Shown here piece by piece: positions 6,602-60,697 of a stretch of 64,000 nucleotides of DNA. Source of the DNA: Limonium bicolor (taxonomy: Eukaryota; Streptophyta; Magnoliopsida; Caryophyllales; Plumbaginaceae); NCBI GenBank assembly GCA_023374045.1, contig CM041780.1:38021030-38085029 (forward strand), read 5' to 3'. The position numbers were made by a program, and so were the translations under genes. Numbering within the stretch: the first letter of the stretch is position 1; each line of letters begins with the position of its first letter. The notes under the pieces are model-generated. The model saw only the letters and a list, made by a program, of their open reading frames with translations, made no database searches and was not told the DNA's origin.

Positions 6602-9101
6602 ATGTTAATAACTTGTCAAAACATCATTTTTCAACCCCTAATCTAACCTTAAACCTTACCTAATCATTCCATAATCTTTCCACATGTTTCCTACATGTTT
6701 AAACACCTTAAAATAAGCACTAAACCTTCTTAAACCATCACTAACTTGTTACTCAATTTCTTACAACAATTCCTAACACTTATAACATTTTTCCTTAGAT
6801 TTCTAAGTGGTATATTATGCCTACAATATCACTAACCAAAGTGTGCTTCCACACCAAGGTAACTACTCCTAAAGCATCATTTTGCATCACCCTCATCCCC
6901 TTTACACACACTCCTCAAGTCTTTCCCACAAGTTCATAGTTAAACCTTCACAAGGCATTACACTTCCATTGTTCACCAAACTTTGCACAAGACTTTACCA
7001 CACCTCCACTATGACCTTGGTGTATCTAGAAATCATCCATTAGTTCTCTAAATCTCCAAGACTATGCCCAAGACATCTTAACACTTAAGAACACCTTAAT
7101 TCACTTTCTTTCATCATCTTAACACTCAACAATTCCTAGTATAATCTTGGTCACCAAACATCATTTTGGACACCTAAAACTCCTTGTTCATTAACCAAAT
7201 TTTGACATAGTTTCTCTTGTATTACCCTACACCAAAACACATAATTTTTCACCTTAATATAACCAAGAACCCTTATTCACTTAATACACACAAACATATT
7301 GTTTTTCATCCTTTAACCATCCAAGACACTCATCTTCACAAATAATGTTCTTTACACACATCTAAATCCTTAAACTACACTACATCGCAATATAGTGCAT
7401 AAACTTAAATTGCTTGGCTCTTAGGCCCTTAGATAACGTTAAACTTAAACACTGAATCTCCACATTTAATTGCCTTCAACCTGCGAATACACACAATAAT
7501 GCTCCCATGTCTTTTTAGTCCACCTTGTGGATAGTTTTCTAGCTCATTTCCCATTGGCTCTTTAAGTCATTTATTAAGCAAATATAGCTCAATATCCTAG
7601 TACAATAAACCACATTAAGAGAGGTCATTTACCTCTTTGTTTTCCATGCTTTCTCACTTGTTTTCTCTTGTTTTTCTTGATTGAAAATCGGCAAGGAACT
7701 TTAATCACTTGTCAACCTTCTAACCAATACACATATAAGGGTAATGAGCATTAAATTTAATACCCAAACTCATAATTAAACCCTAGGTTTACATAAGTGT
7801 CTTAAAACACTAAAATTTGATGATTACCTTTGGAATTTGAAAGAGAACTTGGATAAGTAGTAAGATAGGACTCCTCCTAGTCCATTGGAAATCAATTCAA
7901 GCTAAATGAAGAACAAGAAAATACACCATTAAAGGGATAATTTTCGGCCATATATGAAAATGAAGGGAACATGGATTTTCTTTGATCTTTATTACCTCAA
8001 AACAAAGGAGAACAACAATATGCAAGAAGATGAGCTTTTCCCCCTTCAATGGAGATTCTTCATGGCACCAAAATGGGGTTCTTGAAGATTCGAAAGGATA
8101 GAAGTGAAGAGCTTGGTCTAACTAAGACAAATATGGTCTTAGAATTTGATTTGGAGCATTAATGAACATTTGGTGAGCAATTGAAGTTAGAGAAGAGAGG
8201 GGCTGTAGCAAGCTCGGTTCTGGTTGGGAGAATAGAGGAAGAACACGGTGGGAAGGCAAGGAAATGAAGAAGAGAGGTGAGAGGTTTCACTTTTGCAAGA
8301 TATTTAAGCTTAAAAGCAAATAGTAACTTTACTTTATTTCTTTTTCTTTTCTTTAGTTGGATGACTAGGTTGGTGACTCCCCACCTTAAAAAACGTGGCC
8401 CCTTCAATATATAACATATATATGGCCTTTGTTGACCAATTAAACAACTTATGTTAACTTATAACTTAAACTAGCACATTTTGAGCACTATTCACAAAAC
8501 AAGGCACATATTTGTGAAATTTTTGATTTCCCATTGATTTAGACTTCCTAATGTGATACTAAATAGTACACATGTTAATTAAAGAGTAATGATGGACATT
8601 TAGCCACTCAAAACCCATTTACAAGACAATTTTTCAAAAATGTGCTTTAAGATTCCTTAAAGCACATTTTGTGTTTTAACTTGTTTTCAAGCTTGGTTTT
8701 CTTTGGTAATTGGTTTAATATGTTCATTAACATATAAATAAGGTCTTGGTAGGCTCTTAGAGTCTAAACCAAGGTTACCCTAAGCTTAGAGCACATTTTT
8801 GCTCTTATCGGCTTTAAGGTATTTTCTTGTGTTTTGTTTGGTTTAACTGTCTACCAAAGTTTCCTAAGGACTTAATTAGCCTTGCTAAATCATAATTGAA
8901 TGTTATTTAGTCTTGGTAGGCTCTTTAGGTACCAACCAAGTTCACTCCAAGCTTAGAGCATGTTTTTGCTCAAACTGTGTTTTAGTGCTTTATCGTTTTT
9001 ACTATGGTTTAAATTGTACACTAATGTATCTAAGGCACTTTTTAGCCTTAATATACCATGGTTTAACATTTAAACAACATATCAAGGTTTGGGGTATTTC
9101 A

Positions 9102-10084: not shown

Positions 10085-11744
10085 TTACGCTGAATATGAC
10101 TTCCGCATACCCCGCGTACTAGTGAGGGTACGCCGACTAATTGGCCGAGAGCATGCAGTTCATTTTAGTTCAAACAACATGCAATACAACAATACATCAT
10201 ATATGTACATTCACATCACACTCCACATTCAATCCAGGAATACAATCCACACAGATATCACATCCAGCTTGTTAAGTTCAGCTATCTTATTCTTCAGCCT
10301 TGAGAGACCGTATCTCAAGTGAGTTTCACTCTCGTTAATTACCAACTTTCTATCTCCACCGGGTAGTTTACTTGACTCCTAGATCATTGGACACTCCCGG
10401 TCCCGATCTAGTTTCTTAATTATTCTACTCTTGAATTATATTAGGTGAAGCCTCAAAGGCCTCCGGGTAGAGGCATGTATAAGTCTCACCTCCGGGCTTT
10501 TATAATCTCAATACGGGATTAGAAACATTCTCTCATGTTCCCCTTTCCTATCCCATAATACCCAGCTTACCTCTTTAGACGGGCAAGCTCTTCCGGTCTT
10601 ACTCCAGTCGGGCACCACTATGTGGCACACAGCCCCGCAGGGCACCACTATGTGGCACACGGCCCGGTAACAAGGGAGTTCGACCACGGATTTGGAAACA
10701 TACGCTCTGTTGCTTCCTCTTCCTTGCACGCGTGACTCACAATCCCCCTAACCCAGCTCTCGGGTTAGTAACAATAGGTACTCATATATAAATACATATA
10801 TAAACATTAGTCAGCCGCATCTTTCTCGATGCTATCATACAACTTAGGAGATTTTCCCATCTCGTTGTATCTGCCGATTTTAAGGGTCGCCCCTACACCT
10901 CCGTTACTTAGGAACTATATTCGTTTTCTAACATTGAGTCACATCCTTGCATAGGAGGTCGACTATTGAAATTAAGGACGTTCACTAGCCTCGTGTGTCG
11001 CTTGTTCTCATTTTGAGTCAATTCTTAAGTTTGGTTTATCGTGTCCGTTGATTGATGGTTTTCGTGTGTTATCTCGTCTTGGTTCGATAGCTTAGTGGGT
11101 CTCCATGTTTTCGTTGATTCACAACCGGACTCCTTCTACGAGTCACTACTCAAACAAGACTCACTATGAGTAGCACTACAATACACATTCAACATTCAAC
11201 AATTCATTCATATTCACATTCCATGAATTATACAAACTTCTTTGCAAATTACAAACCAATCAAGCAACAATACTACACAAGCACCATCAAGTGCAAACAA
11301 TCCGATTCGTGCATTTATCTTGTTAGGTGATCACACAATCAAACAAGCACACAAATCGGGGTAACCAAGTTAGGATACAGAGCATGAGGAAATCATACCT
11401 TACACCATGGTTTTACTTTACCGGGTCGCCTTATGTCCCTTGGTTCACATTTGTTCCTCAAATCTTACTCTTGATTCACTGATAATATTTTAGACATCTC
11501 CATTAATTTAAAACACCACGGTATGTAGACTAGTACTCCCGTAATTAACCCCGTTAGCCCATTATTCTTTGGTTCACTTAAGTGTTCTTAATCTCACAAC
11601 TCTTCAATCACTCCTCAAACCTGTTTACACTTCTTAGGGCCATTAAAGTTCACCAAACAACTCCTAAACATCACCTAAAACCAATACCATTCAATTCCCC
11701 ATCATTAGCCACCTTTAAAACACATTCTGGTAAAATTTTAGCAT

Positions 11745-11912
11745 GGTCCGGGTCTACAAACCCGGACCAAGTCCGGAAATAAGTTTCTGCCTATTTTTAT
11801 GTGTGGTCCGGGTTTGTGTCTTGGTTTACAAACCCGGACCACCCCCTGAAATGAGTTTCTGTCCTGTTTTTGCTATGGTCCGGGTTTGCGTACCGATTTG
11901 CAAACCCGGACC
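11745..11912. repeat. Hairpin array, A2 3' LTR (24, 36, 36 bp)
   Basis: Hairpins at 11745-11768, 11805-11840 and 11877-11912, with arms GGTCCGGGT.../...ACCCGGACC. The third has a perfect 13-bp stem. The first is 12 bp shorter than its counterpart in the other LTR. Confidence 0.88.
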
Positions 11913-13515
11913 ACCTCTGGAACTGTCAAAATTTACAGTTTTCCACCAGTTTTCAACCCCTAATTCACCTCTAATCATTTCCTAACCTTTCTACATGTTT
12001 CCTACATGTTTAAATACCCTAAAACATGCTCTAAAACCTCTTCAAAACATTAGTTAAATTCACTACCCAATTCTTGCTCAATTTCCACAGTTTGCATCCT
12101 TACTGTAACAGGTTACTCACTTGTGCATTTCTAAATTCCTTCTTGCTTGTTTCAACCTCTTACCAACCTCACCAAGTCCATAAATGACCATTGTAATTCA
12201 TTCCTACATAAATGCACTTCTAAAACCCAAGTCCAACTCTCATTTCCAAAGTCTTGCACACTAGCTCATTTCCTAGTTTTTCTAAAACATTTCCATACTC
12301 CATTGCTACAGATTTTCACACTCTTCCCCCTAATTCTCTAAATGCCATTTCAAGGCTATCAATCCTCTCCTCTCAACACTACAAACACATAGGTCCTCCC
12401 ATCTCATAAGTCATCTTACAACACTCGTTTTTCTACTAAGATTTCGCCATAACCTCCTCATAATTCTAACATTCTCCAAACCATCAATTCACATCAATTT
12501 ACATTCCTAATCTAGCCACACCCACAAGGGGTCCTACCAGCACACAATATCAATCCCAAGCTCATCAAAATTCCATAAAACACAATATACAACAATAGCT
12601 CAAACTTTAAATACAATGGCACTTAGGCCTTAAATCCACACGAGTTCACAATCACCCTCAAATTAAATCAACTACATTAATTCACATTGTTTGGGTTCAT
12701 TATTTAAATTTAACCCATCCCAATTCCTAAAGCAATTAAAATAAACCTTAAGGTAGATTTCTTACCTTAATCCACAAGTTTCTCTTTTGAATTCTCCTCT
12801 TGCTCCTCCTCTCCTCCAAATCGGTCAAGTGGGAATAGAGTTCCCAAACTCCATCCCACATTCAAGTAACACAAGAAATGGATTCAATTAACCACTCAAG
12901 CCCTTAGGAAACTCTAAATCAAATTAAGGGCTTAAAACACAAGGTTAGGGTTTTACCTTTTGAATGTTCAAGAGGGCTTTCACCCATGAATCAAAGGGGA
13001 AACTCCACCACCATTGGAGAGTTGAATTGAAGATCAAAATCAAGAAGAAAACAAGGTGTGAGAGAGAGCCAAAATCGGCTACCAAGGGAGGAAGAGCAAA
13101 CATGAGTTTTTCAATGAAATTTTTACCTTAGAAGAAAGAGGAGACTCCAAGATACAAGATGATGTGCTTTTCTCTTCAAATGGGGAAAACCCATAAAAAT
13201 GAAACTCATCCTTTTCGAATTTTGGAAAGAGAGAAGTGTAGAGCTTGATGAGGGGAACACAAATATGTGTTTTGTTTTTGATTTGGAGCATTTATGTGGC
13301 TTGAGCATGGAAGAGAAGTTGGAGAAGCCATGGGTGTGGGTGGTGAGTTCATGAACGACAGCAACCAGAGGGAGAGAGGAGAAATCGGTGAGGAAGAAAG
13401 AAAGAGAGGAAATAGGAATAGGACAAAGAGAATGAGGACGAGAGAGGGAACAAGGTAGTTTTAGTACCTCTTTCTTTTCTTTCTTTCTTTCTTCCTAGCT
13501 TATTAGTGTGTGTGA

Positions 13516-19076: not shown

Positions 19077-22000
19077 TGTAACACCCCTACCGGTAATCTC
19101 ACCATTTCTCTTAACCCGTCTCCATTATCAATACACCAGCAGCGGAAATTCTAATACAACCGGGGGTGAAACAATGCCGTTAGCCACTCGCGTGACTAAC
19201 AAGGCTAATTCCAAACAACAATACAACACACTATCGGTCTGATGGGTCTTTACCGAGTACACTACACAAACGATGCTTCCTTTACTTAAACAATTCTCAA
19301 GTCAATACAACCTTTAACACCACAATGTAGCTTAATACAATAACCATTCAGTTACTATATTCCAGTATCTACAATTCCCAGTTTATCGATGACCCTTCGT
19401 CTCAAACCACAATACATAAATACAATTCCCTTAACAACTAACCCATATCATAACAACCCCGTCCTACTCTCGAACGGTGGTCCGGCTTAGCTGAAACTCT
19501 TACAGTGTTCATATTCACCTTGGGTACCTGCACACTAAAACGTTCCCCCTAGGGGTCAGCTTACGCTGATATGACTTCGCATACCCCGCGTACTAGCGAG
19601 GGTAGCCGACTAATTGGTCGAGAGCATGCAGTTCATTTTAGTTCAAACAACATGGCAATACACATACATCATATATGTACATTCACATCACACTCCACAT
19701 TTCAATCCAGGAATACAATCCACACAGATATCACATCCTCCAGCTTGTTAAGTTCAGCTATCTTATTCTTCATCCTTGAGAGACCGTATCTCAGTGAGTT
19801 TCACTTTCGTTAATTACCAACTCTCTATCTCCCATCCCACGGGTAGTTTACTTGACTCCTAGATCATTGGACACTCCCAGTCCCGATCTAGTTTCTTAAT
19901 TATTCTACTCTGAATTCTATAGGTGAAGCCTCAAAGGCCCTCCGGGTAGAGGCATGTATAAGTCTCACCTCCGGGCTTTTATAATCTCAATACGGGATTA
20001 GAAATTCCTCATGTTCCCCTTTCCTAGCCTCCTAATACCCCCAGCTTTACCTCTTTAGACGGGCAAGCTCTGCCGGTCTTACTCCAGTCGGGCACCACTA
20101 TGTGGCACACGGCCCCGCAGGGCACCACTATGTTGCACACGTCCGGTACACAAGGATTTCGACCACGGATTCGGAAACATACGCTCTGTTGCTTCCTCTT
20201 CCTTGCACGCGTGACTCACAATCCCCCTAACCCAGCTCTCGGGTTAGTAACAATAGGTATTCATATATAAATACATATATAAACATTAGTCAGCCGCATC
20301 TTTCTTGATGCTATCATACAACTTAGGAGATTTTCCCATCTCGTTGTATCTGCCGATTTTAAGGGTCGCCCCTACACCTCCGTTACTTAGGAACTATATT
20401 CGTTTTCTAACATTGAGTCACATCCTTGCATAGGAGGTCGACTATTGAAATTAAGGACGTTCACTAGCCTCGTGTGTCACTTGTTCTCATTTTGAGTCAA
20501 TTCTTAAGTTTGGTTTATCGTGTCCGTTGATTGATGGTTTTCGTGTGTTATCTCGTCTTGGTTCGATTGCTTAGTGGGTCTCCATGTTTTCGTTGATTCA
20601 CAACCGGACTCCTTCTACGAGTCACTACTCAAACAAGACTCACTATGAGTAGCACTACAATACACATTCAACATTCAACAATTCATTCATATTCACATTC
20701 CATGAATTATACAAACTTCTTTGCAAATTACAAACCAATCAAGCAACAATACTACACAAGCACCATCAAATGCAAACAATCCGATTCGTGCATTTATCTT
20801 GTTAGGTGATCACACAATCAAACAAGCACACAAATCAGGGTAACCAAGTTAGGATACAGAGCATGAGGAAATCATACCTTACACCATGGTTTTACTTTAC
20901 CGGGTCGCCTTATGTCCCTTGGTTCACATTTGTTCCTCAAATCTTACTCTTGATTCACTGATAATATTTTAGACATCTCCATTAATTTAAAACACCACGG
21001 TATGTAGACTAGTACTCCCGTAATTAACCCCGTTAACCCATTATTCTTTGGTTCACTTAAGTGTTCTTAAACTCACAACTCTTCAATCACTCCTCAAACC
21101 TGTTTACACTTCTTAGGGCCATTAAAGGTCACCAAACAACTCCTAAACATCACCTAAAACCAATACCATTCAATTCCCCATCATTAGCCACCTTTAAAAC
21201 ACATTCTGGTAAAATTTTAGCATGGTCCGGGTTTGTGTCCGGGTCTACAAACCCGGACCAAGTCCGGAAATAAGTTTCTGCCTATTTTTATGTGTGGTCC
21301 GGGTTTGTGTCCGGGTTTACAAACCCGGACCACCCCCTGAAATGAGTTTCTGTCCTGTTTTTGCTATGGTCCGGGTTTGCGTACCGATTTGCAAACCCGG
21401 ACCACCTCTGGAACTGTCAAAATTTACAGTTTTCCACCAGTTTTCAACCCCTAATTCACCTCTAATCATTTCCTAACCTTTCCACATGTTTCCTACATGT
21501 TTAAATACCCTAAAACATGCTCTAAAACCTCTTCAAAACATTAGTTAAATTCACTACCCAAATCTTGCTCAATTTCCACAATTTGCATCCTTACTGTAAC
21601 AGGTTGCTCACTTGTGCATTTCTAAATTCCTTCTTGCTTGTTTCAACCTCTTACCAACCTCACCAAGTCCATAAATGACCATTGCAATTCATTCCTACAT
21701 AAATGCACTTCTAAAACCCAAGTCCAACTCTCATTTCCAAAGTCTTGCACACTAGCTCATTTCCTAGTTTTTCTAAAACATTTCCATACTCCATTGCTAC
21801 AGATTTTCACACTCTACCCCCTAATTCTCTAAATGCCCTTTCAAGGCTATCAATCCTCTCCTCTCAACACTACAAACACCTAGGTCCTCCCATCTCATAA
21901 GTCATCTTACAACACTCGTTTTTCTACTAAGATTTCGCCATAACCTCCCCATAATTCTAACATTCTCCAAACCATCAATTTACATCAATTTACATTCTTA

Positions 22001-23584: not shown

Positions 23585-23648
23585 GCATAGGCGCAGACGG
23601 ATCTCAAATCGGAGCTGAAACGAACATTTTAGAAGAAAACCAGTTTTC

Positions 23649-23990
23649 GTCCGGACCAGTGTGGTCCGGACGGTGGTTCGGACAGTTTAAAAACCCGTCT
23701 GTGGCATGACCGGGTAAATAAGGCCGGACAAGGGTGTGTCCGTAGCGCGTCCGCGGATAAAAGGGCGGACAAAAACGCACCGTCCGAACCAAACTGGTCC
23801 GGACAGTGGTTCGGACGCGACAAAATGAAGGACCGTGTTACGTCCGTGGAATTAAGGCAGGACGCAAAGCAAGGGACAACATGTCCGTGGAAAAATGGGC
23901 GGACAAGGGACAAGCATGTCCGTGGAATTATGGCCGGACAGAGGACAGACAGAGAATAAAAGCCATGCTGTCCGTGGATAAATGACCGGA
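23649..23990. repeat. GTCCG/CGGAC hairpin cluster, ATH 5' LTR
   Basis: Two strong hairpins (23649-23683, 23782-23816; 35 bp from GTCCG to CGGAC) have about 10-bp stems and a loop holding the palindrome GTCCGGAC. They are followed by shorter modules of 22 or 33 bp such as GTCCGTGG...GGCGGAC. The cluster ends about 200 bp upstream of the TATA box. Confidence 0.8.
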
Positions 23991-24200
23991 CGAAAACAAG
24001 GACACGTCTAAATGCAACCCAGATCCAGAATAATTGACGCGCCAACCGTCTTCCCCGTTTTTCTTGCGGCGCCTGCAAACATATCTACGGCGCCTGCAAA
24101 CATATCTATCTACCCATTAGCCATATCAGGCGCCACCCCACTGCACTCCTTAAATTCCTCAAGCATTGTCGCAGCCTGTCTTCTTCCTCCTCCTTTCTTC

Positions 24201-27931: not shown

Positions 27932-28262
27932 GTCCAGACCAGTGTGGTCCGGACAGTTTAAAAACCCGTCCGTGGCATGACCGGGTAAATAAGGCCGTAC
28001 AAGGGTGTGTCCGTAGCGCGTCCGCGGATAAAAGGGCGGACAAAAACGCACCGTCCGAACCACACTGGTCCAGACAGTGGTTCGGACGCGACAAAATGAA
28101 GGACCGTGTTACGTCCGTGGAATTAAGGCAGGACACAAAGCAAGGGACAACATGTCCGTGGAAAAATGGGCAGACAAGGGACAAGCATGTCCGTGGAATT
28201 ATGGCCGGACAGAGGACGGACAGAGAATAAATGCCATGCTGTCCGTGGATAAATGACCGGAC
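27932..28262. repeat. GTCCG/CGGAC hairpin cluster, ATH 3' LTR
   Basis: Counterpart of 23649-23990. The first hairpin (27932-27954) is 23 bp instead of 35, a clean 12-bp difference. The second (28053-28087) is 35 bp. Confidence 0.8.
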
Positions 28263-34664: not shown

Positions 34665-34921
34665 GTCCGTAGCCACGGACCTAATGTCCGAGACCACGGA
34701 CCCCAATTGAATTAAATGATTTCGAAAACAGTTAAAAAATAAAAACGCAAACTTGAAAGGTCCGGGGCCACAGACAGGGTGTCCGTGGGCCCGAACATGT
34801 ATTGACAGAAACCCTAAAATTTGAAAAATTGAAAAATATAAAATCCCGCCACCGTCCGTGGGTGTCCGTGGTCATGGACAACCCGTCCGTGGTCCCGGAC
34901 AATGAGTCCGAGGTCACGGAC
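34665..34921. repeat. OGR dyad cluster, right LTR
   Basis: 16-bp near-palindromes start at 34665, 34686, 34760, 34781, 34864, 34885 and 34906. The last three are exactly 21 bp apart. The best is GTCCGAGGTCACGGAC. The cluster lies 600-850 bp downstream of the TATA box, so it should be transcribed. Confidence 0.8.
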
Positions 34922-37791: not shown

Positions 37792-40532
37792 TGAAATACC
37801 CCAAACCTAATTATGCTAAGTAAACATCAAGTTATGATGTAATAAGGCTAAAACATGCCTTAGAAACATTGGTAGACGATTTAAACCAAGTAAAACACAA
37901 GAAAACACCATAAGGGTAATTTAATCAAAAATGTGCACTAAGCTTGGAGTGACTTTTATTAGCACCCAAATATCATTCTAAGACCTTATTAACATGCTAA
38001 TGGACATGTTAAATCAATTACCAAAGAAAACCAAGCTTAAAAACTAGCTAAAACACAAAATGTGCTTTAAGACTCCTTAAAGCACCTTTTTGATAAATTG
38101 TCTTAGAAATGGGTTTTGAGTGGCTAAATGCCCATGACTACACCTTAATCAACATGAGTACTAATTAGTATCACATTAGGAAGCCTAAATCAATGGGAAA
38201 TCAAAAATTTCACAAATTTGTGCACTAATTTGTGAATAGTGCCAAATAGTACCTAGTTTAAGCTTTAGTCAACATAAGTCAATAAGTTGGTCAACCAAGA
38301 CCATAAATACCTCATTAGTAAGGGGCGAGGGGGAGGGGGCGGTTTTAAATGGTGAGTCACCATAAGGAGCCAGCACATTAAGGAAAAGAAGAGGAAATGA
38401 GAGAATAGTACTATTTACCTTTTAAAAGAGAAATATCTTCACTTAAGCCTACCTCTCTCCTCTCTTCTTCATTTCTCTTCTTCACCAACATTTTCTTCTT
38501 CCCCTCTCTGTTTCAAAACCGTTCCAAGCAGCATCCATGGCACCACCACCTTCAATTGCTCACCATATACTCATTTTAGCTCCAAATTAAAAAGTGAGCA
38601 TAAATTATTCTTAGTTGGAGCAAGACCTTCCTTTATATCTTTTCAAATCCATCAAAGCTCAAGTTTGTTTCCCTGAGAAAACTCCATTGATGGAGGAAAA
38701 TCAAGTTTGAAGAGCTCTTTTGGTTCTTCATTCATCCAAGGTAATGAAAGTGAAAGAAAAATCAACTTTCCATCATTTTTTCTACATGACCAAAAATTAT
38801 CTTCTCATGGGATCTTGTTTTATCCCTTGAACTAGCTTATTTTCATTCTCCAAGGACTAGTGGAGGTCCTTCTGGATTCATACCCAAGTCTATCTTGAGG
38901 CTTCAAAGGTAATCATCCACTTTTAAGCTTTAAAACACACATTTTAACCTAAGGATGAGTTCTATAAGTTTAGGCATATTTCTTAGTGCTCATTAGATTA
39001 TTTGAATGTGAATTAGAACATTGGCAAGGGAATTAAAGTTCATTGCCGAAAGTCAAGCAAGAAAATCCAAGGAGGAAAGTGTGAAAAGCTTGGAAAAATA
39101 AGGTAAATGTTTTACCTAATGATGGTTTAAGATTTTAAGGGATGAGGTTTAGATAAGTACTAATGTAGCTTAAAGCTTACATTATGTAATGGGTTATATA
39201 ACCTAGGAAAAAGAATTTGAACAAGTTTGTGAACTTGTGACTAAGGATCAAATGGGAAATGAGTTAGTAAGATAAGTATAAGGTGAATTATGAGAACGCT
39301 TCTATTGCTAGGGGAGCATTGTTGTGTGTATTTGCAGGTTGAAAGCTTTTATATGTGGGAAATTCAGTGTTTAAGTTGAGCCATGTCATTTAAGAGCCTT
39401 AGTGCTATGCAATTTAAGATTATTGCACTATATTGAGTTTATTATGAATGAGTTGATTTGGGTGAGAAATATGATGAGGAAAAGATTTGATGTGTGTGAG
39501 ATGATTGAATGGGAAAAACCATGCATATGGGCATGATAATATACTAGAGAAGCTATGGCGAAATTTGAGTAGAAAACAAAGTGTTTAAGTGGTGGTTGTG
39601 AATTAATATGACCTAGGATTTACTAGGAACCATTAAAAAGAATTTGAGTGGAAATGAGTTAACAAAGGTGTTCTTGAGAATTGGAATGACCTAGAGTAGT
39701 CTAGGAGGAATTAGAGGATTGGTGGGCGTATTAAACACACCAAGGTCATGGTATGAGGAGTGTTGAGACTTGAGCAAAAATCTGTAGGAAATGATGATAA
39801 TACTTTGAGATGATTTAGGTATGAACTAGAGAATATAACAATGAGGATTTTAGGTAGCTTGTGTAAGTGGTGAAGATGCTAGCGGTGGATTAATAAGGTT
39901 ATAGTTTGGGTGGTAATGAGTGGACTTGGGTGATGGAAGTGAAAATTGTAGGAGAATGTTGTAAATTGTCAAGGAAATGACTAGGAATGTATAAGAGGGT
40001 ATGATCATGAGAATGGTGGGTAAATTGAGAAAAGGAGATGGGAATGTCTAAGGAGGGTGTAGTATGGTCAAGGTAAAGAAGAAGAAGGTTAAGGTGCTAA
40101 GAGGATGGAAAGAAATGTATAGGTATGTTCAAGAGTTTAGGAGTGATGAGTAACAAATGGAAAGGAGAGAGATTTGTGCATGGAGATGCAAGATAGCCTT
40201 GGAAAGTTTATCAAAGGAAAGATGGATGAATAATGATGTTTGAGGAGTAGTTATATTGGTTGAAAGGAAACACTATGGTTAGTTGAAGTTTAGGCAAAAA
40301 TTAACATGTTGTAAGTGTAAGGAATTAAGTTATAAGTGTTAAGAGTTTAGTAAGAACTTGAATAATGATCAAGGAATTTGGAGGTGATTTGAACCATGAA
40401 TTAGGAGGATTTTAAGTGCTAAAATGGTGTTAGAACATGTGTGAATACATGGGGAAAGATTAGAAGATGATTGGGCAAAGGAACAAGTGGAGAATGAAGT
40501 TCAAAACTGTAAAATTTAATTGTTTAAAGTGT

Positions 40533-40713
40533 GGTCCGGGACTTGGTCCTTGGATAAAGTCCCGGACCAGCACCAAAAACCTGCCGAGAATCTGTTTCAG
40601 AGGTGGTCCGGGACCTAGGCTAGGTGCAACGACCCGGACCACCCTATAAAATGAAGCTTAGAGTGATCAGACACATTGGTCCGGGACCTTAGGTCCGGAC
40701 CATGTCCCGGACC
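40533..40713. repeat. Hairpin array in A3 (36, 36, 36 bp)
   Basis: Hairpins at 40533-40568, 40605-40640 and 40678-40713, with arms GGTCCGGGAC.../...(G)(T/A)CCCGGACC. The first has a 12-bp stem. The third has a 10-bp stem and the palindrome GGTCCGGACC in its loop. Confidence 0.88.
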
Positions 40714-42003
40714 AGGCTATTTTACAAAGGAAATGTGTTTTTTAGGTGGTAAATGAAGGGGCTTGTTAGGTAATGCTAATATAAGGTTGTTAAGAGTTGT
40801 TTGGTGGAATTTGATGGCCATTGGAGGTGTGAACAAGGGTGAGGTAAATAAGAAGTAAATAACATAAGTGGTTAAGCTTGAAATACAATGATTTAGTGGT
40901 ATTTAGTTGGAGTTGATTAGTGATGATATGAGTTATGTTAACTAAAAGAAATTAACCATCCAATTCGATCAATGTTTTAGGGTTTGAGAATTTGGACTCC
41001 GGAGGAGAGTAAGCAACCGAACGACCAACGGTGAATAGTATGGTTTTCTTGTGACCTGCTTGCTAACGAGGTGTCCCTCGGCTTGTGTGCTATTTGTTTA
41101 TGTGTGCCGACTAAACAAGATAAAGTATGCAACCGGAATATTATGTTTGTTGTGTGATTGTGATGCACTAACACAACTTTACCTTGAGAACTTACTAACT
41201 AATGTTTAGTAAACAATGGTGTGAGATTAAGGAACACTCCCTAGCATTGTTTAATTAGTAACCGAAAGAGGCTAACTAACAAACATTGACTTTGAGGCTT
41301 CCACTAACTGGAACTTGGGGGGGGGGGGAGTGAGGAATCCGGAATCATTCTGGCACATGTGTATTAGGGGAGGTCAGTATCCTTATCAAGTCCCGACTTC
41401 CAAATATGACTTGTCTTTGGACTCGTCGCCAAGAGTCGACATATAGACTCGACCTCCTCAGACTTCTTGTTTTAGGAGGGAGGCATACTGAGATGGTGTG
41501 GTGGGATCTACCTAAATCCCAACTAATTCTAACAAATATATTTTATGTAAACCAATGGAGCTGATAACTTATTGGTTAGGGTTACTTGACCTGACAAGAT
41601 AAACAATGAGTTAAGGAACAACCATTCTAATTAAAGAATGGTTGACTTAACTGAGATAAGAACTGAGATAAGATTTGAGATAAGATTTGAGATAAAGTAC
41701 AACCAATTCAAATTAAAGAACGGTTGGTACATTGAGACTGAGATAAGGACTAAGACTGAGGTAGGGTAAGAATGGACTGAGATTAAGAGGTATAATATTT
41801 TAAGGAGTTAAAAGATTAACTCACTAATTAAGGGAACGCTTTTAAGTCGTTCTTTGTGTGTGAACCATGTGTGTTCAAATGTGGCTTGTTGTTTATTGCA
41901 CTTTTATTTATATTGTGCATCTAATCAATCTCCATGCTATCGATAATTAGTCGTTGTAGCCCCGTTAGCTTGGGGGCCATGAGAGAATCGTACCAGCAAA
42001 GGT

Positions 42004-44590: not shown

Positions 44591-47500
44591 TGTAACACCC
44601 CAACTCACAAATACATAGTCATCTCATAAACCTCCATTTACTTAACTCAACATTACAGCGGAATCCTTACAACAGTCGGTGTTACCGCCGTCAGTCACCC
44701 ACATGACTAACTAGGCATACTAAATACTCCAAGATCTAGCTACGGTCTGATGGACCCGAATATACCGAACATTAGTACATACAAGCCTTAACCAATTACA
44801 TAACACTCTTACAAACTCCTTACATCCTATAGAACTTACTAACATCTCATACCATTTACTAAACGAGTGTACATACACAACTCGTACAACTAAAAGAAGA
44901 CAACCCGAAGTAAATCTACCCGATCCTACTCTCAGGACTGTCGTCTTCTGTCATTCACCTGCAAAATATAAATAGTAGCCCTCGAGGGGGTCAGCACCTT
45001 TGCTGGTACGATCCTCTCATGGCCCCCAAGCTAACGTGGCTACGACGACTAATTGTCGATAGCATGGAGGTTGATTAGATACACAACATAAATAAGAAGT
45101 GCATTAAACAATAAGCCACATTCATGTGAACAATCACAACTCAAAGGATTGAACGACTTAATAAGTGTTCGTTAGGTAAGTGAGTTAGTGTTTTAACTCT
45201 TTAAATTGAGGAACATTCAATTCTCATCTCAGATCTCATCTCAAACATGTGAACCGTTCTTTAATTAGATTCGGTTATACTTAGTCCATTGTTTATTTTT
45301 GTTGGGTCAAAAGTAACCCTAGCCAGCGGCCGAGAACTGCGTTGGTTCAATAAACAATAATTCTCAAATTAGTTGGGATTTAGGTAGATCCCACCACACC
45401 ATCTTAATATTGCCTCCCACCTTGAACTGTAACCCAAGGTGGCTGAGTCGACATTTGACTCTAGGCATCAAGTCCGTAGACAAGCTCAAATGGAAGCCGG
45501 CGCTAATAAAAGGTAACCGACCTCCCCTTAACACATGCATGACCGAACCATTCCGGATTCCTCACTCCCCCCAAGTTCTAGTTAGTAGAAGTCTCAAGAC
45601 AATGTTTGTTGGTTATACCTCTTTCGTTTATTAGCAAACTAATATTAGGAAGTGTTCCTTATTCTCACACAATTCTTTACTAAACATTGTTAGCAAGTTC
45701 ACAAAGGTAAGTTGTGTTAGTTTCAAACAATACACAACAAGTCAATAAACCGGTTGTATGCTTTATCTTGTTTAGTCGGCACACATAAACAAATAGCACA
45801 CAAGCCGAGGGACACCTCGTTAGCAAGCAGGTCACAAGAAAACCATACCGTACACCGTCAGTTGTTCGGTTGCTTACTCTCTTCCGGAGTCCAAATACTC
45901 AAGTCCTAAAACATTCATTCAATTTAGGTTGTTAATTACTTTCAATCAACCTAACTTACTTAGCCCCTAACAATCTCCATCTAACGAACACTAAGTTCTT
46001 ATAAACTTAACCTTAAACACTTAAAACCATTTTACTTAACTTAATCTCTTAAGTCCTTACATGGTTATCTTTCCAATCATCATCACTCTTCTAATGGTGG
46101 ACCACTAAGTCATTGTAATTTAAACTTAATCATATAAGTTAATCACTTCGCATTACACCTCATACTTGTTTACACTTTTTAAGGCCTTTACATGTCATTA
46201 AACAAGGCCTAAACAACATCTAAAACCGTTACCATCCAATCCCCCATCATTAGAAGCTTTAAAACAATTTTTTTCTTTTTCTCTGCACTGGACCGCCCCT
46301 CTTGGGTGGTCCCAGGGGCGGTCCCAACCAGAGGCTAGTTTTCTTGCAGAATTCGCCTGGACCTCCCCATAGGGGCGGTCCACAGCAGAACCCATTTTTC
46401 AAAGTGTTTCTCTTCTCATTTTGAACTCTAAATTCACCCCAATCTTTTCCTAATCATTTCTCATGTTTCCCCACATGTTTTAACATCATTTTAGCACCTC
46501 AAAACCCTCTTAAACCATCCAACAATCTCCTTAAACATTTACTCAAATTCTTACTAAATTCTTAACACTTAACACTTCGTTCTTTACACTTCCAACTTGT
46601 AATTTTCTCCAATCTTCTTCTAACCTCTCTACATGCATCCCAACATGTTCTGACACCATTTAAACACCTTATAACCTCTCTTCATTGCTTACAACTCCAT
46701 TACACATCCACCCAAATATTGTAATTTGTTTACACTTAAAACCTTGGACATTCTTACTTTTGTTTTCCTTATTACACCTCCTCACACAACTTCCCTTCCC
46801 TTACACTTTCTACTCATCCTTTCAAAGCTTGCACCTACCTAAGCTTTTCTAGCCATCCTCTTAACATTCATCTTGACCATGCTAAATCCTTCTTAAACCA
46901 CTTTCATCTCATCACTCAAATCCACTCAATACCATAAAGGTTACACAAACTAGATCATACCTAAATCATCACAAGGCATTGTATATCATTTCCTACAAAT
47001 TTTTGCTCAAGTCTTAACATTCCTTATATCATGATCTTGGTGTGTTTAATACACCCACCTAACCTCTAAATCCTCCTAGGTCACTCTACGTCATTCTAAT
47101 CCTCAAGAACACCTTTGTTAACTCATTTCACTCAAATTTCCTTTAATGACTCCTAGTAGATCCTAGGTCATATTAATTCACAACAACCACTTAAACACTT
47201 TGTTTTCTACTCAAATTTTTCCATAGCTCCTCTAGTATATTATCATGCCCATATGCATGGTTTTTCTCATTCAATCATCTCACACACATCAAATCCTTTT
47301 CTCATAATATTTCTCACTCAAATTAACCCATTCATAACAAACTTAATATAGTGCAATAATCTTAACTTGCTTAGCACTAAGGCTCTTAAATGACATGGCT
47401 CTTAGGCCCTTAAATGACTTAAACTTAAACACTGAATTTCCCACATATAAAAGCTTTCAACCTGTAAATACACACAACAATGCTCCCATAACAATATAAG

Positions 47501-50668: not shown

Positions 50669-53439
50669 TGTAACGACCCCAAAACCACCCTGGTTGAGAG
50701 ACCGTTACACGCCGCGCGCTTATTACCTAAGACACGCAAGGCTACACTATCGAAACCCCAAAATAGAACTAATGCTCATATATTACCAAATAAAAGATTA
50801 CAACATGTCTATACAATACACAGGCGGAAGCCAGACTGAAATACAAAGCATAATCTAATTACAACTGGGCACCAAGGCCAAACAAGCTGAATACAAAACT
50901 CAAATGCCAAGACAAAAAGTTGAAACTGAATCTCCAAGCACGAACTAAAACCTGCAAATCAGACGGAGATAGGGGTGAGCAAAACTATTGCTCAGCAGGT
51001 GATAAACTTCATCAGCTGAGCATGCTCAAAACAGATACTGAACATACATATTTATACATATACAAAAGCGCTTAGCCAGAGCAAAATCAGAGATAAAGCG
51101 GAAGTCTTTCAAGTAGACAGAAGTCTAAAACACCAGGAGCTAAGCGGTGGTCAAAACATACACTTAATAGCATAAGGTAAACTGAAGCTGAAAGCTTGAC
51201 GAAATCAGAAGCTTAACAAACTCAAAAAGCTTAAACACAATCAGAAGCTTAGCAAAATTAGAAGCTTAGCAAAATCCAGAACTTAGCAGGAGACAGTAAG
51301 CACACAGCAGACCGTCTCAAATCAAATACAGATAGAGAGCAGACGAAACAGAGCGTTTATAAAGCAGAAATACCCAGCAGACAGAAAGCACACAACAGTC
51401 CGTCGACGTTTGGAAACAGACAGAGCATACAGAAACAGATCACTTAGTAAACCAGAGGCTTTCAGAAGACAGAAAGCACATAGCAGTCTGTCAGAAATCA
51501 GAAACAGATAGAGCTAACAAAAACAGAACTCTTAACAATCAGAAGTGGGACACTAGCACCAAGCATAGCACTCAGAAAGGGTCGAAGACCCATAGATCTA
51601 ACAGATCCCTCGACAACGCAGAAATGACCCGAAGGCCAAAGGGTTCGTCAACTCCACAGAACAGATTGGGCATGACCCACACTCAGAATGACGTCTACAT
51701 GGTATACCACAGAATAGCTCGACCCAGCCATTCACGGCTCAGAAATAAAGTAACTAGGTCCCAAAATAGAGGCTTAATCCAAACAGATCGAAGCTTAATA
51801 CAGAGCAGAGCGGAAGTCTTAACCAGGTCAGAACAGAAAGCGAAAGCTTAGCAAAATCAGAGAAGGAGCTTACCAACGGAAAGCCTTAGCAAAACAGAAG
51901 TCGAACCCGACTAGTAAATACGAAAGCAAAACTGAAGTCAAAGATTGGATCACATTTCCAGAGCAAATTAGGAATCAAAGGCTTATCAGAGACCCCAAAA
52001 TCTGGAAACACTTAAACACATGCCAAAACACATGAAAACAGATAGCACTCGGAAAGAGGAATCCAACGCCGCAAACGGCACTCAAAACGGAGCTCAGACG
52101 AAGAAGTTATGGTCAAATCAGAGAGGTGTCCGAACTTGTGTCCGGACGTCGAAGTTCGGACACAGGTCGAGACTCAGAAACCAGAGATTGTCAAATGTCC
52201 GAACTTGTGTCCGGACATCAAGGTTCGGACACAAGTCGAGATGAAAACAGATAGGGAATTTCAGAGTGTCCGAACATCGAAGCTCGGACCGATGTTCGGA
52301 CGGGTTCCACGGGAAAAAGTTACGCGGAGTGTCCGAACATCAATGTTCGGACTGATGTTCGGACATACCCCGAGTTTGAAAATACAAAAGCTCAAAACAT
52401 GCTGTCCGAACTTAGAAGTTAGGACAGATGTTCGGACAGCACGAAATCAGAAGAACAGAGGCTACGAACAGATCAGAAAAATTATCCAAACTTCACCAAA
52501 CCTTGCCAAAGAATTACCCACACCAAATCAGACATAAATACAGGAAAACCACGAGGTTTTAGCCACTCAAAAACGCAAACACACTGCATTAAATCTCACA
52601 CACAAATCAATGAACAATCCTTATAAATCCCAAATCAGCGGCACTCAGAAATCACAAAACAGAGGGAGATTTACAGATGCAGATTCACCATCGTTAAAGC
52701 AATACTTACATAACCAAAATACGCGAATCAAAACACTACCCACGGGGTTTTAACGCATTAGAAACGTAAATCAGAAATCACCCAAATCATCACAAATCAG
52801 AGTCAAATAAATATATGCGGAAACATTGACCGAAACCCCCGTGGGTGAACACACACAACTGAATCCATCTACCACCTACCTCACATCCGTAGCTATGCCA
52901 TCTCTGCGGACTCTACGAATCGCCTTCCCGAATCTCCAGTCAAATGATAATCCCTCGAATTGAACCGCTCCCAAAATACAAAATCAGAATTAGAAAAGAG
53001 AAGAGGAAGCCTTAATGGAGAAGAGAACCAATCTACAATCCAACCTGATTGACGACCGACGGACGAACACAATTCCATCTATAGACCTCCAGCGATTACA
53101 ATTGAAAGAAATTGAAGAAGAGGATGAGCAAAGGGATGAGGGTTTGAGAGCGATGAAACTGTCGTGCATAGATGTCAGGAAAGTGGAAGGAGAGAAATAA
53201 CGTGAATAGGAGTAGGAAGAGAGAAGGGAAATAAATTATAGAATTAAGAAGTCCCTTCCCTAACAAATAAATAAATAAATGATAGAAGCATGCTATTTCT
53301 AATTCTCCTTCCTCCAGCTATGACAATAATATTTAAGGAATGCCATAAACTCTCTAGTATAAGGTACAAATTAATCCGAACTCCCTTTGCGAATCAGAAG
53401 GAATATGATAAAATAAAAAAAAAATTCTGGGGCATAACA
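50669..53439 (-). repeat. B1 3' LTR (2771 bp)
   Basis: Contains five hairpins (52127-52438) and an acceptor-like site (minus GTCTGATTTGCAG then GTTTTAG, AG at 50952-50953). This is preceded by a 7-bp stem GCTCAGC/GCTGAGC at 50990-51021. A TATA-like tataattta on the minus strand lies near 53231-53240. Confidence 0.92.
52127..52438. repeat. Hairpin array, B1 3' LTR (five modules of 36 bp)
   Basis: Hairpins at 52127-52162, 52196-52231, 52267-52302, 52330-52365 and 52403-52438, spaced 63-73 bp. Arms are TGTCCGAAC.../...GTTCGGAC. The first has stem TGTCCGAACTT/AAGTTCGGACA and a loop holding GTCCGGAC, a perfect palindrome; the third and fourth have 11- and 12-bp stems. A 142-codon ORF through the array is incidental. 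Confidence 0.9.
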
Positions 53440-54267: not shown

Positions 54268-54272
54268 CTAAA

Positions 54273-57031
54273 TGTAACGACCCCAAAACCACCCTGGTTG
54301 AGAGACCGTTACACGCCGCGCGCTTATTACCTAAGACACGCAAGGCTACACTATCGAAACCCCAAAATAGAACTAATGCTCATATATTACCAAATAAAAG
54401 ATTACAACATGTCTTTATAATACACAGGCGGAAGCCAGACTGAAATACAAAGCATAATCTAATTACAACTGGGCACCAAGGCCAAACAAGCTGAATACAA
54501 AACTCAAATGCCAAGACAAAAAGTTGAAACTGAATCTCCAAGCACGAACTAAAACCTACAAATCAGACGGAGATAGGGGTGAGCAAAACTATTGCTCAGC
54601 AGATGATAAACTTCATCAGCTGAGCATGCTCAAAACAGATACTGAACATACATATTTATACATATACAAAAGCGCTTAGCCAGAGCAAAATCAGAGATAA
54701 AGCGGAAGTCTTTCAAATAGACAGAAGTCTAAAACCCAGGAGCTAAGCGGTGGTCAAAACATACACTTAATAGCATAAGGTAAACTGAAGCTGAAAGCTT
54801 GATGAAATCAGAAGCTTAACAAACTCAAAAAGCTTAAACACAATCAGAAGCTTAGCAAAATCAGAAGCTTAGCAAAATTCAGAACTTAGCAGAAGACAGT
54901 AAGCACACAGCAGACCGTCTCAAATCAAATACAGATAGAGAGCAGACGAAACAGAGCGCTTATAAAGCAGAAATACCCAGCAGACAGAAAGCACACAGCA
55001 GTCCGTCGATCTTTGGAAACAGACAGAGCAGACAGAAACAAATCACTTAGTAAACTAGAGGCTTTCAGAAGACAGAAAGCACATAGCAGTCTGTCAGAAA
55101 TCAGAAACAGATAGAGCTAACAGAAAACAGAACTCTTAACAATCAGAAGTGGGACACTAGCACCAACCATAGCACTCAGAAAGGGTCGAAGACCCATGGA
55201 TCTAACAGATCCCTCGACAACGTAGAAATGACCCGAAGGCCAAAGGGTTCGTCAACCCCACAGAACAGATTGGGCATGACCCACACTCAGAATGACGTCT
55301 ACATGGTATACCATGGAATAGCTCGACCCAGCCATTCACGGCTCAGAAACAAAGTAACTAGGTCCCAAAATAGAGGCTTAATCCAAACAGATCGAAGCTT
55401 AATACAGAGCAGAGCGGAAGTCTTAACCAGGTCAGAACAGAAAGCAAAAGCTTAGCAAAATCAGAGAAGGAGCTTACCAACGGAAAGCCTTAGCGAAACA
55501 GAAGTCGAACCCGACTAGTAAATACGAAAGCAAAACTGAAGTCAAAGATTGTATCACATTTCCAGAGCAAATTAGGAATCAAAGGCTTATCAGAGACCCC
55601 AAAATCAGGAAACACATAAACACATGCCAAAACACATGAAAACAGATAGCACTCCGAAAGAGGAATCCAATGCCGCAAACGACACTCAAAATGGAGCTCA
55701 GATGAAGAAGTTATGGTCAAATCAGAGAGGTGTCCGAACTTGTGTCCGGACGTCGAAGTTCGGACACAGGTCGAGACTCAGAAACCAGAGATTGTCAAAT
55801 GTCCGAACTTGTGTCCGGACATCAAGGTTCGGACACAAGTCAAGATGAAAACAGATAGGGAATTTCAGAGTGTCCGAACATCGAAGCTCGGACCGATGTT
55901 CGGACGGGTTCCACGGGAAAAAGTTACGCGGAGTGTCCGAACATCAATGTTCGGACATACCCCGAGTTTGAAAATACAAAAGCTCAAAACATGCTGTCCG
56001 AACTTAGAAGTTAGGACAGATGTTCGGACAGCACGAAATCAGAAGAACAGAGGCTACGAACAGATCAGAAAAATTATCCAAACTTCACCAAACCTTGCCA
56101 AAGAATTACCCACACCAAATCAGACATAAATACAGGAAAACCACGAGGTTTTAGCCACTCAAAAACGCAAACACACTGCATTAAATCTCACACACAAATC
56201 AATGAACAATCATTATAAATCCCAAATCAGCGGCACTCAGAAATCACAAAACAGAGGGAGATTTACAGATGTAGATTCACCATCGTTAAAGCAATACTTA
56301 CATAACCAAAATACGCGAATCAAAACACTACCCACGGGGTTTTAACGCATTAGAAACGTAAATCAGAAATCACCCAAATCATCACAAATCAGAGTCAAAT
56401 AAACATATGCGGAAACATTGACCGAAACCCCCGTGGGTGAACACACACAACTGAATCCATCTACCACCTACCTCACATCCGTAGCTAAGGCATCTCTGCG
56501 GACTCTACGAATCGCCTTCCCGAATCTCCAGTCAAATGATAATCCCTCGAATTGAACCGCTCCCGAAATACAAAATCAGAATTAGAAAAGAGAAGTGGAA
56601 GCCTTAATGGAGAAGAGAACCAATCTACAATCCAACCTGATTGACGACGGACGGACGAACACAATTCCATCTATAGACCTCCAGCGATTACAATTGAAAG
56701 AAATTGAAGAAGAGGATGAGCAAAGGGATGAGGGTTTGAGAGCGATGAAACTGTCATGGATAGATGTCAGGAAAGTGGAAGGAGAGAAATAACGTGAATA
56801 GGAGTAGGAAGAGAGAAGGGAAATAAATTATAGAATTAAGAAGTCCCTTCCCTAACAAATAAATAAATAAATGATAGAAGCATGCTATTTCTAATTCTCC
56901 TTCCTCCAGCTATGACAATAATATTTAAGGAATGTCATAAACTCTCTAGTATAAGGTACAAATTAATCCGAACTCCCTTTGCGAATCAGAAGGAATATGA
57001 TAAAATAAAAAAAAAATTCTGGGGCATAACA
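54273..57031 (-). repeat. B1 5' LTR (2759 bp)
   Basis: Partner of 50669-53439. The main length difference is the 12 bp missing from the fourth hairpin (55934-55957). Confidence 0.92.
55731..56030. repeat. Hairpin array, B1 5' LTR (36, 36, 36, 24, 36 bp)
   Basis: Hairpins at 55731-55766, 55800-55835, 55871-55906, 55934-55957 and 55995-56030. The fourth lacks 12 bp between direct repeats atgttcggac. Confidence 0.9.
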
Positions 57032-57036
57032 CATGT

Positions 57037-59552: not shown

Positions 59553-60509
59553 TGTTATAACCCGTCATTCATATCTTATATTATATCAGTTGCAATGTTG
59601 TTCTAAGTTGGATTATTTATTCCTTGCTGTCAGTGGGACCTGATCGGCATTCCTTTAAATGGCAAGGGTAGGAAGGTCTTTGCATAAAACAATTAAGGTA
59701 ATTGTTTTACTAGTTAATAAGGAGAAGGGTTCCTTATTTTCTTTCCTTACATTTTCTAATTATTTTACATCACGTCAGTTCATTGGTGAGGAGCGTTCTC
59801 GATCGTGGTTTGAACGACAGTTTTCTCCCTTCCCTTCTCTCTCTCTAATTCCTCCTCTGCTGAAACGGTGAATGATCTACTGCAATCTGGTTGGAATCTC
59901 TGCTGCTGTGTAATCCGTTGTCCGCCTTCAGGTTTGGTTCTCGAAATTCAGTATAGTAATTAGAGCAAGTTCCTCTCCTCTGCAGTTTCTGATTTTGGAT
60001 GATTGTTGTGATGAACTCAGTGATTGTGCTCTGCGTTTGGATTCGTGTTCTGTGTGTGGCTGTGCTCTGCGAATTGCTGGAGGTCCTGCACACTCGATTT
60101 CAGGTTTGTGGTGCAGAAAGTTATACAGTTTTGAGTTTCCGAATTCTAGGTTTCCTTCGAATGTTTTCTGATTTCTGGGCTTTAATTGTGGAACTCAGTG
60201 GCTGTTGTTCTGTATCGATTGTGGTTCTGGGTGGTTGGGCTCTGCTGTCTGATTCGGGATTTGTCTGCTAATTGAGGTAGATGGTTACTCGATTCAGTTT
60301 GGAAGTTCAGCCATGGGGATTGCAACGGTTCTGTCTTGTGTGTGATTTCTGTTTGTGATGTCTGTTTGGTTGCGTTTTGGAATGGTTAAACCCCCATGGT
60401 TTCCTGTTTTAATGTCTGATTTGGTGTGTGTGCTTAATTGGCAATTCGTGGTATCGAATTGTGTTGTTTTTCTGCTCTGTTCGTCTTCTGAAATTTGCAG
60501 TTTTCGCAC

Positions 60510-60545
60510 TGTCCGAACTTCTGTCCGAGCTTTGAAGTTCGGACA
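60510..60545. repeat. Single 36-bp hairpin in B2 LTR
   Basis: Arms TGTCCGAACTT/AAGTTCGGACA enclose ctgtccgagctttg. Same length and arms as the first B1 hairpin, but the loop palindrome is changed (GTCCGAGC). Confidence 0.85.
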
Positions 60546-60697
60546 GTGCGTTTTGCCTTTCTGTTTAAGTGTTCTGACTGTTTCTGATATGGGAACCCCT
60601 TGTGTTCCACTCTGTTCCTGTTTCTGAAAGCTTCTGGATATTGAGAATTGTGGATAAAATGCTTATCTTCTCCTTCTTCTGTTTTCAATTGTTTTGA

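Follow-up and report, generated by a model that had tools for sequence, protein, structure and literature searches.

Sirevirus retrotransposons, of the Ty1/copia type, carry a repeated palindromic motif in their long terminal repeats (LTRs). In the account of 13 Sireviruses by Bousios et al. (2010, PMC2829016), this motif has a CGG-CCG core in all but one case, forms CpG islands and lies upstream of the TATA box. The same account calls the boxes Sirevirus-specific, absent from the classic Ty1/copia elements that it compared. A role as docking sites for DNA-binding proteins has been proposed for such boxes. By our own reading of its Table 3, eight of the 13 consensus boxes (Osr10, Osr9, HOPIE, Vitis, Usier, OPIE-2, PREM-2 and Osr8) contain GTCCG or GACCG or their complements (PMC2829016). 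Here we describe arrays of GTCCG...CGGAC dyads in the LTRs of Ty3/gypsy retrotransposons of Limonium bicolor, in a stretch of 64,000 nt (C5:38021030-38085029 of the 2.92-Gb assembly) that is called the window throughout, at its full length.

The original prediction, made from the letters of the window, stated that no description of such a module was known to its author. This did not hold, as palindromic GC-rich high-copy LTR boxes were published for Sireviruses in 2010 (PMC2829016), and the kind of feature is thus already known. Its novelty lies in the Ty3/gypsy carriers, in the 12-bp modules and in arms that are replaced while a G[T/A]CCG core stays; the open-licence literature that we searched yielded no account of such boxes in Ty3/gypsy LTRs, of the 12-bp modules or of module insertions and deletions (indels). 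Like the Sirevirus boxes of that description, the arrays consist of many clustered GC-rich palindromic LTR boxes with a CGG/CCG core and use both half-sites, GTCCG and GACCG, and the array of an Athila-like element lies upstream of a predicted TATA box, as the Sirevirus boxes lie upstream of theirs (PMC2829016). Unlike them, the arrays have the polarity GTCCG...CGGAC rather than CGGAC...GTCCG, their carriers are Ty3/gypsy elements, one of which (T) has a Ty3-type protease, reverse transcriptase (RT) and RNase H, and their units, in contrast to the boxes as described, are made of 12-bp modules. The OPIE box CACCGGACNNNGTCCGGTG had no match in the window at up to two mismatches. The Sirevirus criterion is at least eight copies per element; counted here per LTR, element B has five units (16 cores), the LTRs of group A have two or three, T has one, the Athila-like LTRs have at least six dyads, and exact N6 dyads number four in one Ogre-like LTR and three in the other. 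A further likeness, drawn by description only, is to the TRAYC-like satellites of Silene latifolia, where a 73-bp region with an imperfect palindrome is reported as the sole likeness of two repeat families; those are satellites, not LTRs (PMC3212565). These comparisons, together with the data below, lead us to regard the arrays as a real, genome-wide and modular feature, the Ty3/gypsy counterpart of the Sirevirus palindromic boxes, for which we infer a mechanism.

GTCCG dyads in LTR arrays of the window and of the genome

The window (GC content 0.405) is retrotransposon-rich plant DNA, whose elements were delimited by self-BLAST, LTR ends and primer-site motifs (Table 1). The labels Tekay-like, Athila-like and Ogre-like come from motifs rather than from trees, and the typing of primer sites as iMet, Asp and Arg presumes such motifs as well. 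B and T have a primer-site leader and one LTR stretch in common; otherwise, the groups OGR, ATH, A and B/T shared no LTR match of at least 150 bp in the self-BLAST. The pattern GTCCG-N0-30-CGGAC occurs 56 times in the window against 0.23 expected, a number reached in none of 100 shuffles, and 55 of these matches lie inside LTR arrays, the remaining one being at 61807 in the coding region of T. The claim that such dyads occur in the LTRs of unrelated families was therefore borne out. Similarly, GTCCGGAC is found 10 times (0.29 expected), always within arrays. With dinucleotide shuffling of each array alone (1000 times each), the observed count was never met in seven of the eight arrays; the eighth, that of A5, contains no GTCCG dyad and is the exception to the GTCCG rule, occupying the same LTR slot with other arms.

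A motif-free scan for inverted repeats with arms of at least 9 bp found five in B3, the 3' LTR of element B (its 5' LTR being B5), against a shuffled mean of 0.05, and eight in the 26812 bp outside the delimited LTRs; the Ogre-like LTRs, which have 16-bp dyads, showed no excess at this arm length (0 and 1). Among the 512 5-mer pairs, GTCCG/CGGAC ranked first in OGR5, ATH3 and B3, second in A3 and third in A4b, with weaker ranks in T5 (13), A1 (14) and A5 (180), and 17 to 403 in nine stretches outside the main LTRs; one of these, 57035-59553, which was also part of the inverted-repeat scan, includes an A-like LTR fragment. The opposite polarity, CGGAC...GTCCG within N0-30, gave 19 matches in the window, mostly joins of neighbouring sites. 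Cores lie in convergent forward...reverse (F...R) units in 16/16 cases in B3, 15/15 in B5 and 8/8 in A3, in 18/20 and 12/15 in the Athila-like 5' and 3' LTRs, and in 9/12 and 9/10 in the Ogre-like LTRs. The CpG observed/expected ratio is above that of the rest of the LTR in seven of eight arrays and equal to it in A5. Searching the whole window against Rfam gave no match at the gathering score.

The host genome (2.92 Gb) holds 795,303 matches to the one pattern that was counted genome-wide, 35-fold more than the 22,377 of a reversed-pattern control. Spacing and core statistics beyond the window come from a 200-kb sample made up of twenty 10-kb stretches, whose positions on the five largest contigs were preset rather than drawn at random. 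In this sample the pattern gave 66 dyads and the backward control 3, with at least three dyads in seven of the 20 stretches. The arrays are thus not confined to this locus; confinement to it had been named beforehand as an outcome that would refute the prediction. When all 1024 5-mers were screened for dyads over the 200 kb, a screen free of GTCCG ascertainment, GTCCG came top by observed/expected (66 against 2.15) among the 200 5-mers with at least 15 dyads. Its commonest spacings were N12 and N24 (11 dyads each), the same as in the window (21 and 20). The 23 GACCG dyads of the sample follow the same spacing rule (N12 seven times, N24 eight), and GCCCG and GGCCG gave just 1 and 2 dyads. Two sampled arrays, L018 (7482-7760) and L028 (2926-3104), are built on the GACCG core, like A5 in the window. 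They also have the 70-bp step and 34-bp units of the window arrays, and their linkers share GGGAAA..TTTCTG-like letters with A4. Since the layout is shared by unrelated LTRs beyond composition and genome-wide, shared selection or a shared reader is called for, and to this extent the original interpretation is supported.

Modular units and their changes

Read in the sense direction, the units of A, B and T and the long Athila-like units split into 12-bp modules, an outer forward one (F) and an outer inverted one (R). Three-module units have an extra middle copy in either direction, giving the layouts F-R, F-F-R and F-R-R; a B unit, for example, consists of TGTCCGAACATC, AGTCCGAACATT and GATGTTCGGACA. 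The middle module is past recognition in a few units, such as A1 at 6567 and A3 at 40606. Lengths of 36 and 24 bp arise because units comprise three or two such modules. As to the lengths predicted, 36/24 bp stands for A1, A3 and B (cores of 34 and 22 bp, 36 and 24 with the next base pair included), but A4, said to be 35/23, has the same 34/22 cores; 35 bp is right for the long Athila-like units, whereas their short counterparts measure 20 and 22 bp instead of the 23 predicted. The 16 bp of the Ogre-like dyads was correct, as was the location of the B array, whose five units run from core to core at 52128-52437. The distance from GTCCG start to CGGAC start is most often 17 (21 cases) or 29 (20 cases), and same-strand copies recur at a step of 12 (8 and 6 times) or, in the Ogre-like case, 21 (8 and 3 times). 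Units were found via GTCCG...CGGAC, so that the advantage of the outer cores over the middle module (GTCCG/CGGAC in 11/17 middles) is partly ascertainment and is not taken as evidence. Coding constraint as the source of the 12- and 36-bp lengths was rejected because the steps between B units (69, 71, 63 and 73 bp) are not all multiples of three.

The LTRs of one insertion start out identical, and differences between them therefore date from the insertion or later. A single array indel of exactly 12 bp separates the two LTRs in each of three pairs (A4, Athila-like and B), and the Ogre-like pair has none; in the rest of these four LTR pairs, none of 46 indels is 12 bp and the longest is 7 (the Athila-like pair was compared only from 23591 and 27874 onward). 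Another MAFFT mode gave 51 gaps outside the arrays rather than 46 and left the three in-array indels unchanged. Among three more array pairs from C1, chosen by eye and presumed to be LTR pairs, L029/L030 (Ogre-like, 88% identical) differ by 21 bp, that is one dyad step, one pair has a single-base array gap and one has no gap. We take slippage between adjacent modules to be the probable origin of the 36/24 rule.

The letters beside the core vary by family, in A5 the core as well, and the dyad layout is constant. Between A3 and A5, identity is 0.79 for the LTR as a whole and 0.64 for the 300-bp flanks, against 0.38 for the array, where GGTCCGGGAC.. in A3 and GGACCGCCCC.. in A5 take up one and the same position and the dyad layout is unchanged. 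The six arms of A4b all read GGTCCGGGTTTG, and those of A1 and A3 are mostly GGTCCGGGAC... Among the sampled arrays, L027 is flanked by a 184-bp stretch that matches the A1 LTR at 93% identity, yet its arms read GTCCGACCC.., as do those of L010, which has A-like flanks. Simple fast turnover is not favoured by the array and flank identities of A1-A3 (0.70 vs 0.58) and A4b-A3 (0.57 vs 0.50); A1-A4b is about equal (0.61 vs 0.64), and the array is ahead in two of the three GTCCG-type pairs.

Binding sites, hairpins and other readings

We put at about even the chances that the arrays are double-stranded DNA binding sites for a dimeric protein acting on GTCCG/GACCG half-sites and controlling element transcription. 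A dimeric protein, host- or element-encoded, would read GTCCG or GACCG in the LTR arrays; its binding would regulate transcription of the element, and selection for binding would maintain core and polarity. If transcribed, the arrays would form strong hairpins that probably lead to small RNAs and methylation, as Sirevirus palindromes reportedly do, in which case arm replacement may reflect an arms race. Auxin-response, heat-shock, TCP and LOB-domain sites were compared with the half-site by eye, and none fitted.

Several observations weigh against binding sites. Some concern pairing, and they form the case for the main rival, which we consider unlikely: that the units act at the RNA level, as transcript hairpins that serve mainly as substrates of small-RNA production or as decoys for it, with the pairing itself selected. 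The 12 outer pairs of three-module units are standard in 91.1% of cells, against 71.5% when shuffled, and paired columns covary in register, with a score of 0.510 against 0.163 shuffled that drops sharply when the alignment is slid by one column. This set comprised 15 units, as 36-mers of A1, A3, A4b, A5, B3 and T, with the A5 row off register by one base; one LTR was used per pair, and the Athila-like and Ogre-like units, as well as two units of 24 bp in A1 and A5, stayed outside the set. Even the six bases beyond the core pair in 55 of 114 cases, against 45.1 for within-clade shuffles (146 of 10000 reach 55), and the arms of T, at 17 bp, are longer than plain binding sites would require. Other arm versions in the sampled arrays are complementary still, for example GTCCGACCCA...TGGGTCGGAC. 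In each of eight LTRs examined the best-folding 110-nt segment lies in the array and is below -40 kcal/mol, the cut-off used for microRNA-like regions in maize (PMC10760457), T leading minimally with -40.8 against -40.7 elsewhere in its LTR. Maize Sirevirus LTR palindromes, with which the arrays share clustering in the LTR, strong predicted folding and a variable region, are reported as small-RNA hotspots in a highly variable region (PMC5311732 and PMC10760457, citing Bousios et al. 2016, Genome Res 26:226); compared with them, the arrays here hold the best fold in 8/8 Ty3/gypsy LTRs examined.

The remaining points against binding sites concern transcription, the core itself and decay. Promoters were predicted by scans for TATA boxes, pyrimidine patches and AATAAA that we judged decisive for the Athila-like LTR alone; in the Ogre-like LTR the best TATA candidate precedes the array, which may be transcribed, and so may the A, B and T arrays, for which the scans placed no promoter. 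The layout is kept without a GTCCG core in A5, L018 and L028. The LTR pairs L009 and L019 lack any GTCCG dyad, which means that arrays are not obligatory for every LTR element. CpG transitions between LTR pairs affect 12/174 CpG sites in arrays and 39/544 elsewhere; this similar decay would imply that old copies decay as the rest does and that intact cores mirror active sources. Finally, the literature on LOB-domain proteins and TCCGGA gave no lead to a binding protein.

What nevertheless leads us to prefer binding sites over hairpins is that arms match across units, that Athila-like interiors are unpaired, that the 5-mer is fixed and that the Ogre-like step is 21 bp. The two arms of a unit match at 152 of 228 positions, barely more than the 145.1 for arms of separate units within an LTR (152 is reached in 438 of 10000 shuffles), against 120.3 for within-clade shuffles (0 of 10000); this test covered 19 units, with second LTRs left out, and family divergence confounds its comparison between LTRs. 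Most of the covariation is therefore between families, because the arms of separate units in one LTR match nearly as well as those of one unit. Such likeness between units indicates that arms track an LTR-wide motif, as expected of sites for one factor. The N12 spacing is common to the A, B/T and Athila-like arrays, and the Athila-like N12 dyads (22 bp; seven over both LTRs) hold it with only one or two of six interior pairs, against two to five in the 14 dyads of A, B and T. The Ogre-like dyads form a 21-bp repeat, about two helical turns. A stem requires neither a fixed GTCCG core nor a polarity; the fixed 5-mer is needed by a protein, not by a hairpin. We also count in favour of binding sites the prominence of GTCCG, and of GACCG, in the genome sample, the high ranks of GTCCG/CGGAC in otherwise unrelated LTRs, the convergent order of the cores, the conservation of the array above its flanks in two A pairs and the Sirevirus precedent.

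Less probable again, and in our view improbable, is that the palindromes are a functionless by-product of mutation, in which template switching or slippage during reverse transcription or replication makes and corrects inverted 12-bp modules. The exact 12-bp differences in three of four LTR pairs, the joint change of arms and the low array identity of A3 and A5 relative to flanks and whole LTR are all consistent with it. It gives no account, however, of the same top 5-mer in three unrelated LTRs and in the genome sample, leaves the shared N12/N24 spacing unexplained and sits poorly with the scarcity of long-armed inverted repeats outside the delimited LTRs.

It is very improbable that an anti-silencing protein encoded by the elements acts on the arrays in the way that VANC proteins act on their targets in VANDAL transposons. 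The VANC targets are likewise described as noncoding arrays of short motifs whose units diverge together (PMC5735166, PMC10398659), and the concerted change of units here recalls them: arms change together, and those of A5 are replaced, yet the A1-A3 and A4b-A3 arrays outconserve their flanks. VANC targets, however, belong to DNA transposons and have a known cognate protein, and no dyad is described for them in PMC5735166, in which the string 'palindrom' is absent. When 20 of the 78 stop-to-stop frames of at least 85 aa were scanned with Pfam, no such protein was seen; the matches were retrotransposon domains in T, one G-patch domain and one weak match below the cut-off.

The least credible reading is the one that the original prediction had put forward, that the stem-loops are kissing-loop signals for dimerisation or packaging of genomic RNA. 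Some units do resemble retroviral dimerisation initiation sites in having a stem-loop with a self-complementary loop (PMC5874298), and in 6/17 three-module units the loop is self-complementary over at least eight bases and holds GTCCGGAC. In that sense the palindromic loop is present, but at 23649 the best hairpin (23648-23672) has both copies of GTCCGGAC in the stem, and a second possible hairpin of 11 bp at 52196 (52203-52236) takes the GTCCG of GTCCGGAC into its stem. Kissing loops were dropped as the main reading, since the self-complementary loop is not conserved across units or elements (10/17 three-module units, including T and three A4b units, have none of six bases or more), the 22-bp Athila-like dyads are unpaired inside, and the Athila-like array, ending about 210 bp upstream of the predicted TATA box CTATAAAA at 24200, the best in that LTR, would fall outside the 5' leader. 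A TATA-like CTATAAAA also occurs within the A3 array.

Beyond binding as such, it is conceivable, if somewhat doubtful, that unrelated elements, the Ty1/copia Sireviruses and the Ty3/gypsy Tekay-, Athila- and Ogre-like elements, have converged on a G[T/A]CCG half-site that a single conserved plant protein recognises, with gain and loss of whole modules and concerted swaps of arm letters, the arrays forming a common and rapidly changing switch code in about 800,000 copies in this genome.

Elements of the window and meaning of the arrays

Table 1. Elements and dyad arrays of the window (positions counted from its first letter).
Feature	Position	Strand	Details
Ogre-like element	LTRs ~1254-3057 and ~34232-36033	minus	5' LTR is 34232-36033; Arg-type primer site 34212-34228
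A1, solo LTR, group A (long LTRs)	4562-9101		5-bp target duplication TGGAG
A4, group A	LTRs 9601-14084 and 19077-23584		
A3, group A LTR	37792-42408		
A5, group A LTR	44591-48993		
Athila-like element	3' LTR ~27685-29752	plus	5' LTR split by A4; Asp-type primer site 25486-25502
Element B	LTRs 50669-53439 (3') and 54273-57031 (5')	minus	LTRs ~830 bp apart; target duplication CATGT
Element T, Ty3/gypsy	5' LTR ~59554-61083	plus	LTR start predicted; element runs past window end
B 3' LTR array, five units of 12-bp modules	52126..52441	minus	cores 52128-52161, 52197-52230, 52268-52301, 52331-52364, 52404-52437
B 5' LTR array, counterpart of 3' LTR array	55730..56033	minus	unit four shorter by 12 bp (22-bp core)
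12-bp module in one B LTR, missing from partner	52343..52354	none	placed by MAFFT
T 5' LTR, one unit	60505..60550	plus	17-bp arms, 12-nt loop
A1 solo LTR, three units	6434..6602	minus	
A4 LTR 9601-14084, three units	11744..11913	minus	first unit 12 bp below that of partner LTR
A4 LTR 19077-23584, three units	21223..21404	minus	
A3 LTR, three units	40532..40714	plus	
A5 LTR, two units	46289..46383	minus	arms GGACCGCCCC/GGGGCGGTCC; slot as in other A LTRs, letters differ, no GTCCG
Athila-like 5' LTR array	23648..23991	plus	35-bp units 23649-23683, 23782-23816; 22-bp GTCCG-N12-CGGAC dyads at 23749, 23883, 23918, 23970
Athila-like 3' LTR array	27947..28262	plus	one 12-bp module fewer than 5' LTR array
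Ogre-like 5' LTR array	34665..34921	minus	16-bp GTCCG-N6-CGGAC dyads, 21-bp steps
Ogre-like other LTR array, counterpart	1688..1944	minus	

T is the sole long-frame element among those with arrays; its protease, RT and RNase H lie in one open frame of 778 aa. The best 120 of 7929 proteins matched by its RT part show 55-82% identity, and the named ones among these we take, judging by their names, to come from eudicot plants. A protein search with a gag piece gave no match at E 1e-20, and the viral_contigs collection held no locus for the T pol frame and no match to the B-type hairpin pattern. A T-like element may be the helper of B (50669-57031), since B is only ~830 bp long inside and shares the primer-site leader of T (59554-61163).

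A4 is nested within the Athila-like 5' LTR, with GCATA on both flanks (9596-9600 and 23585-23589), and the A1 solo LTR has gone into tandemly repeated units of 39-40 bp (4285-4561 and 9102-9244). An AT-rich hairpin distinct from the arrays, with arms of 10-15 bp and a 4-nt loop (GTGCTTTAAG...CTTAAAGCAC), is present close to where the A1, A3 and A5 LTRs begin (8637-8670, 38062-38085 and 48700-48723). Another, TTAGACTTTTTCTGATTGTAAAAAGTCTAA, with 11-bp arms and an 8-nt loop, is kept in both Athila-like LTRs downstream of the TATA box (24781-24810 and 29052-29081). The G-patch domain (E 3.2e-08) is encoded in a minus-strand frame at 31404-31859, between the Athila-like 3' LTR and the Ogre-like 5' LTR, and 12 copies of a 30-bp tandem repeat (91% matches) occupy 3852-4214.

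The arrays would widen to Ty3/gypsy elements a box feature reported as Sirevirus-specific. The 12-bp differences between the LTRs of one insertion offer a datable view of array change, and, with the core fixed and the arms changing, the arms-race idea can be put to the test. Should the arrays prove to be binding sites, screening directly with these short sequences could reveal one regulator shared by several of the largest repeat families of a plant genome.

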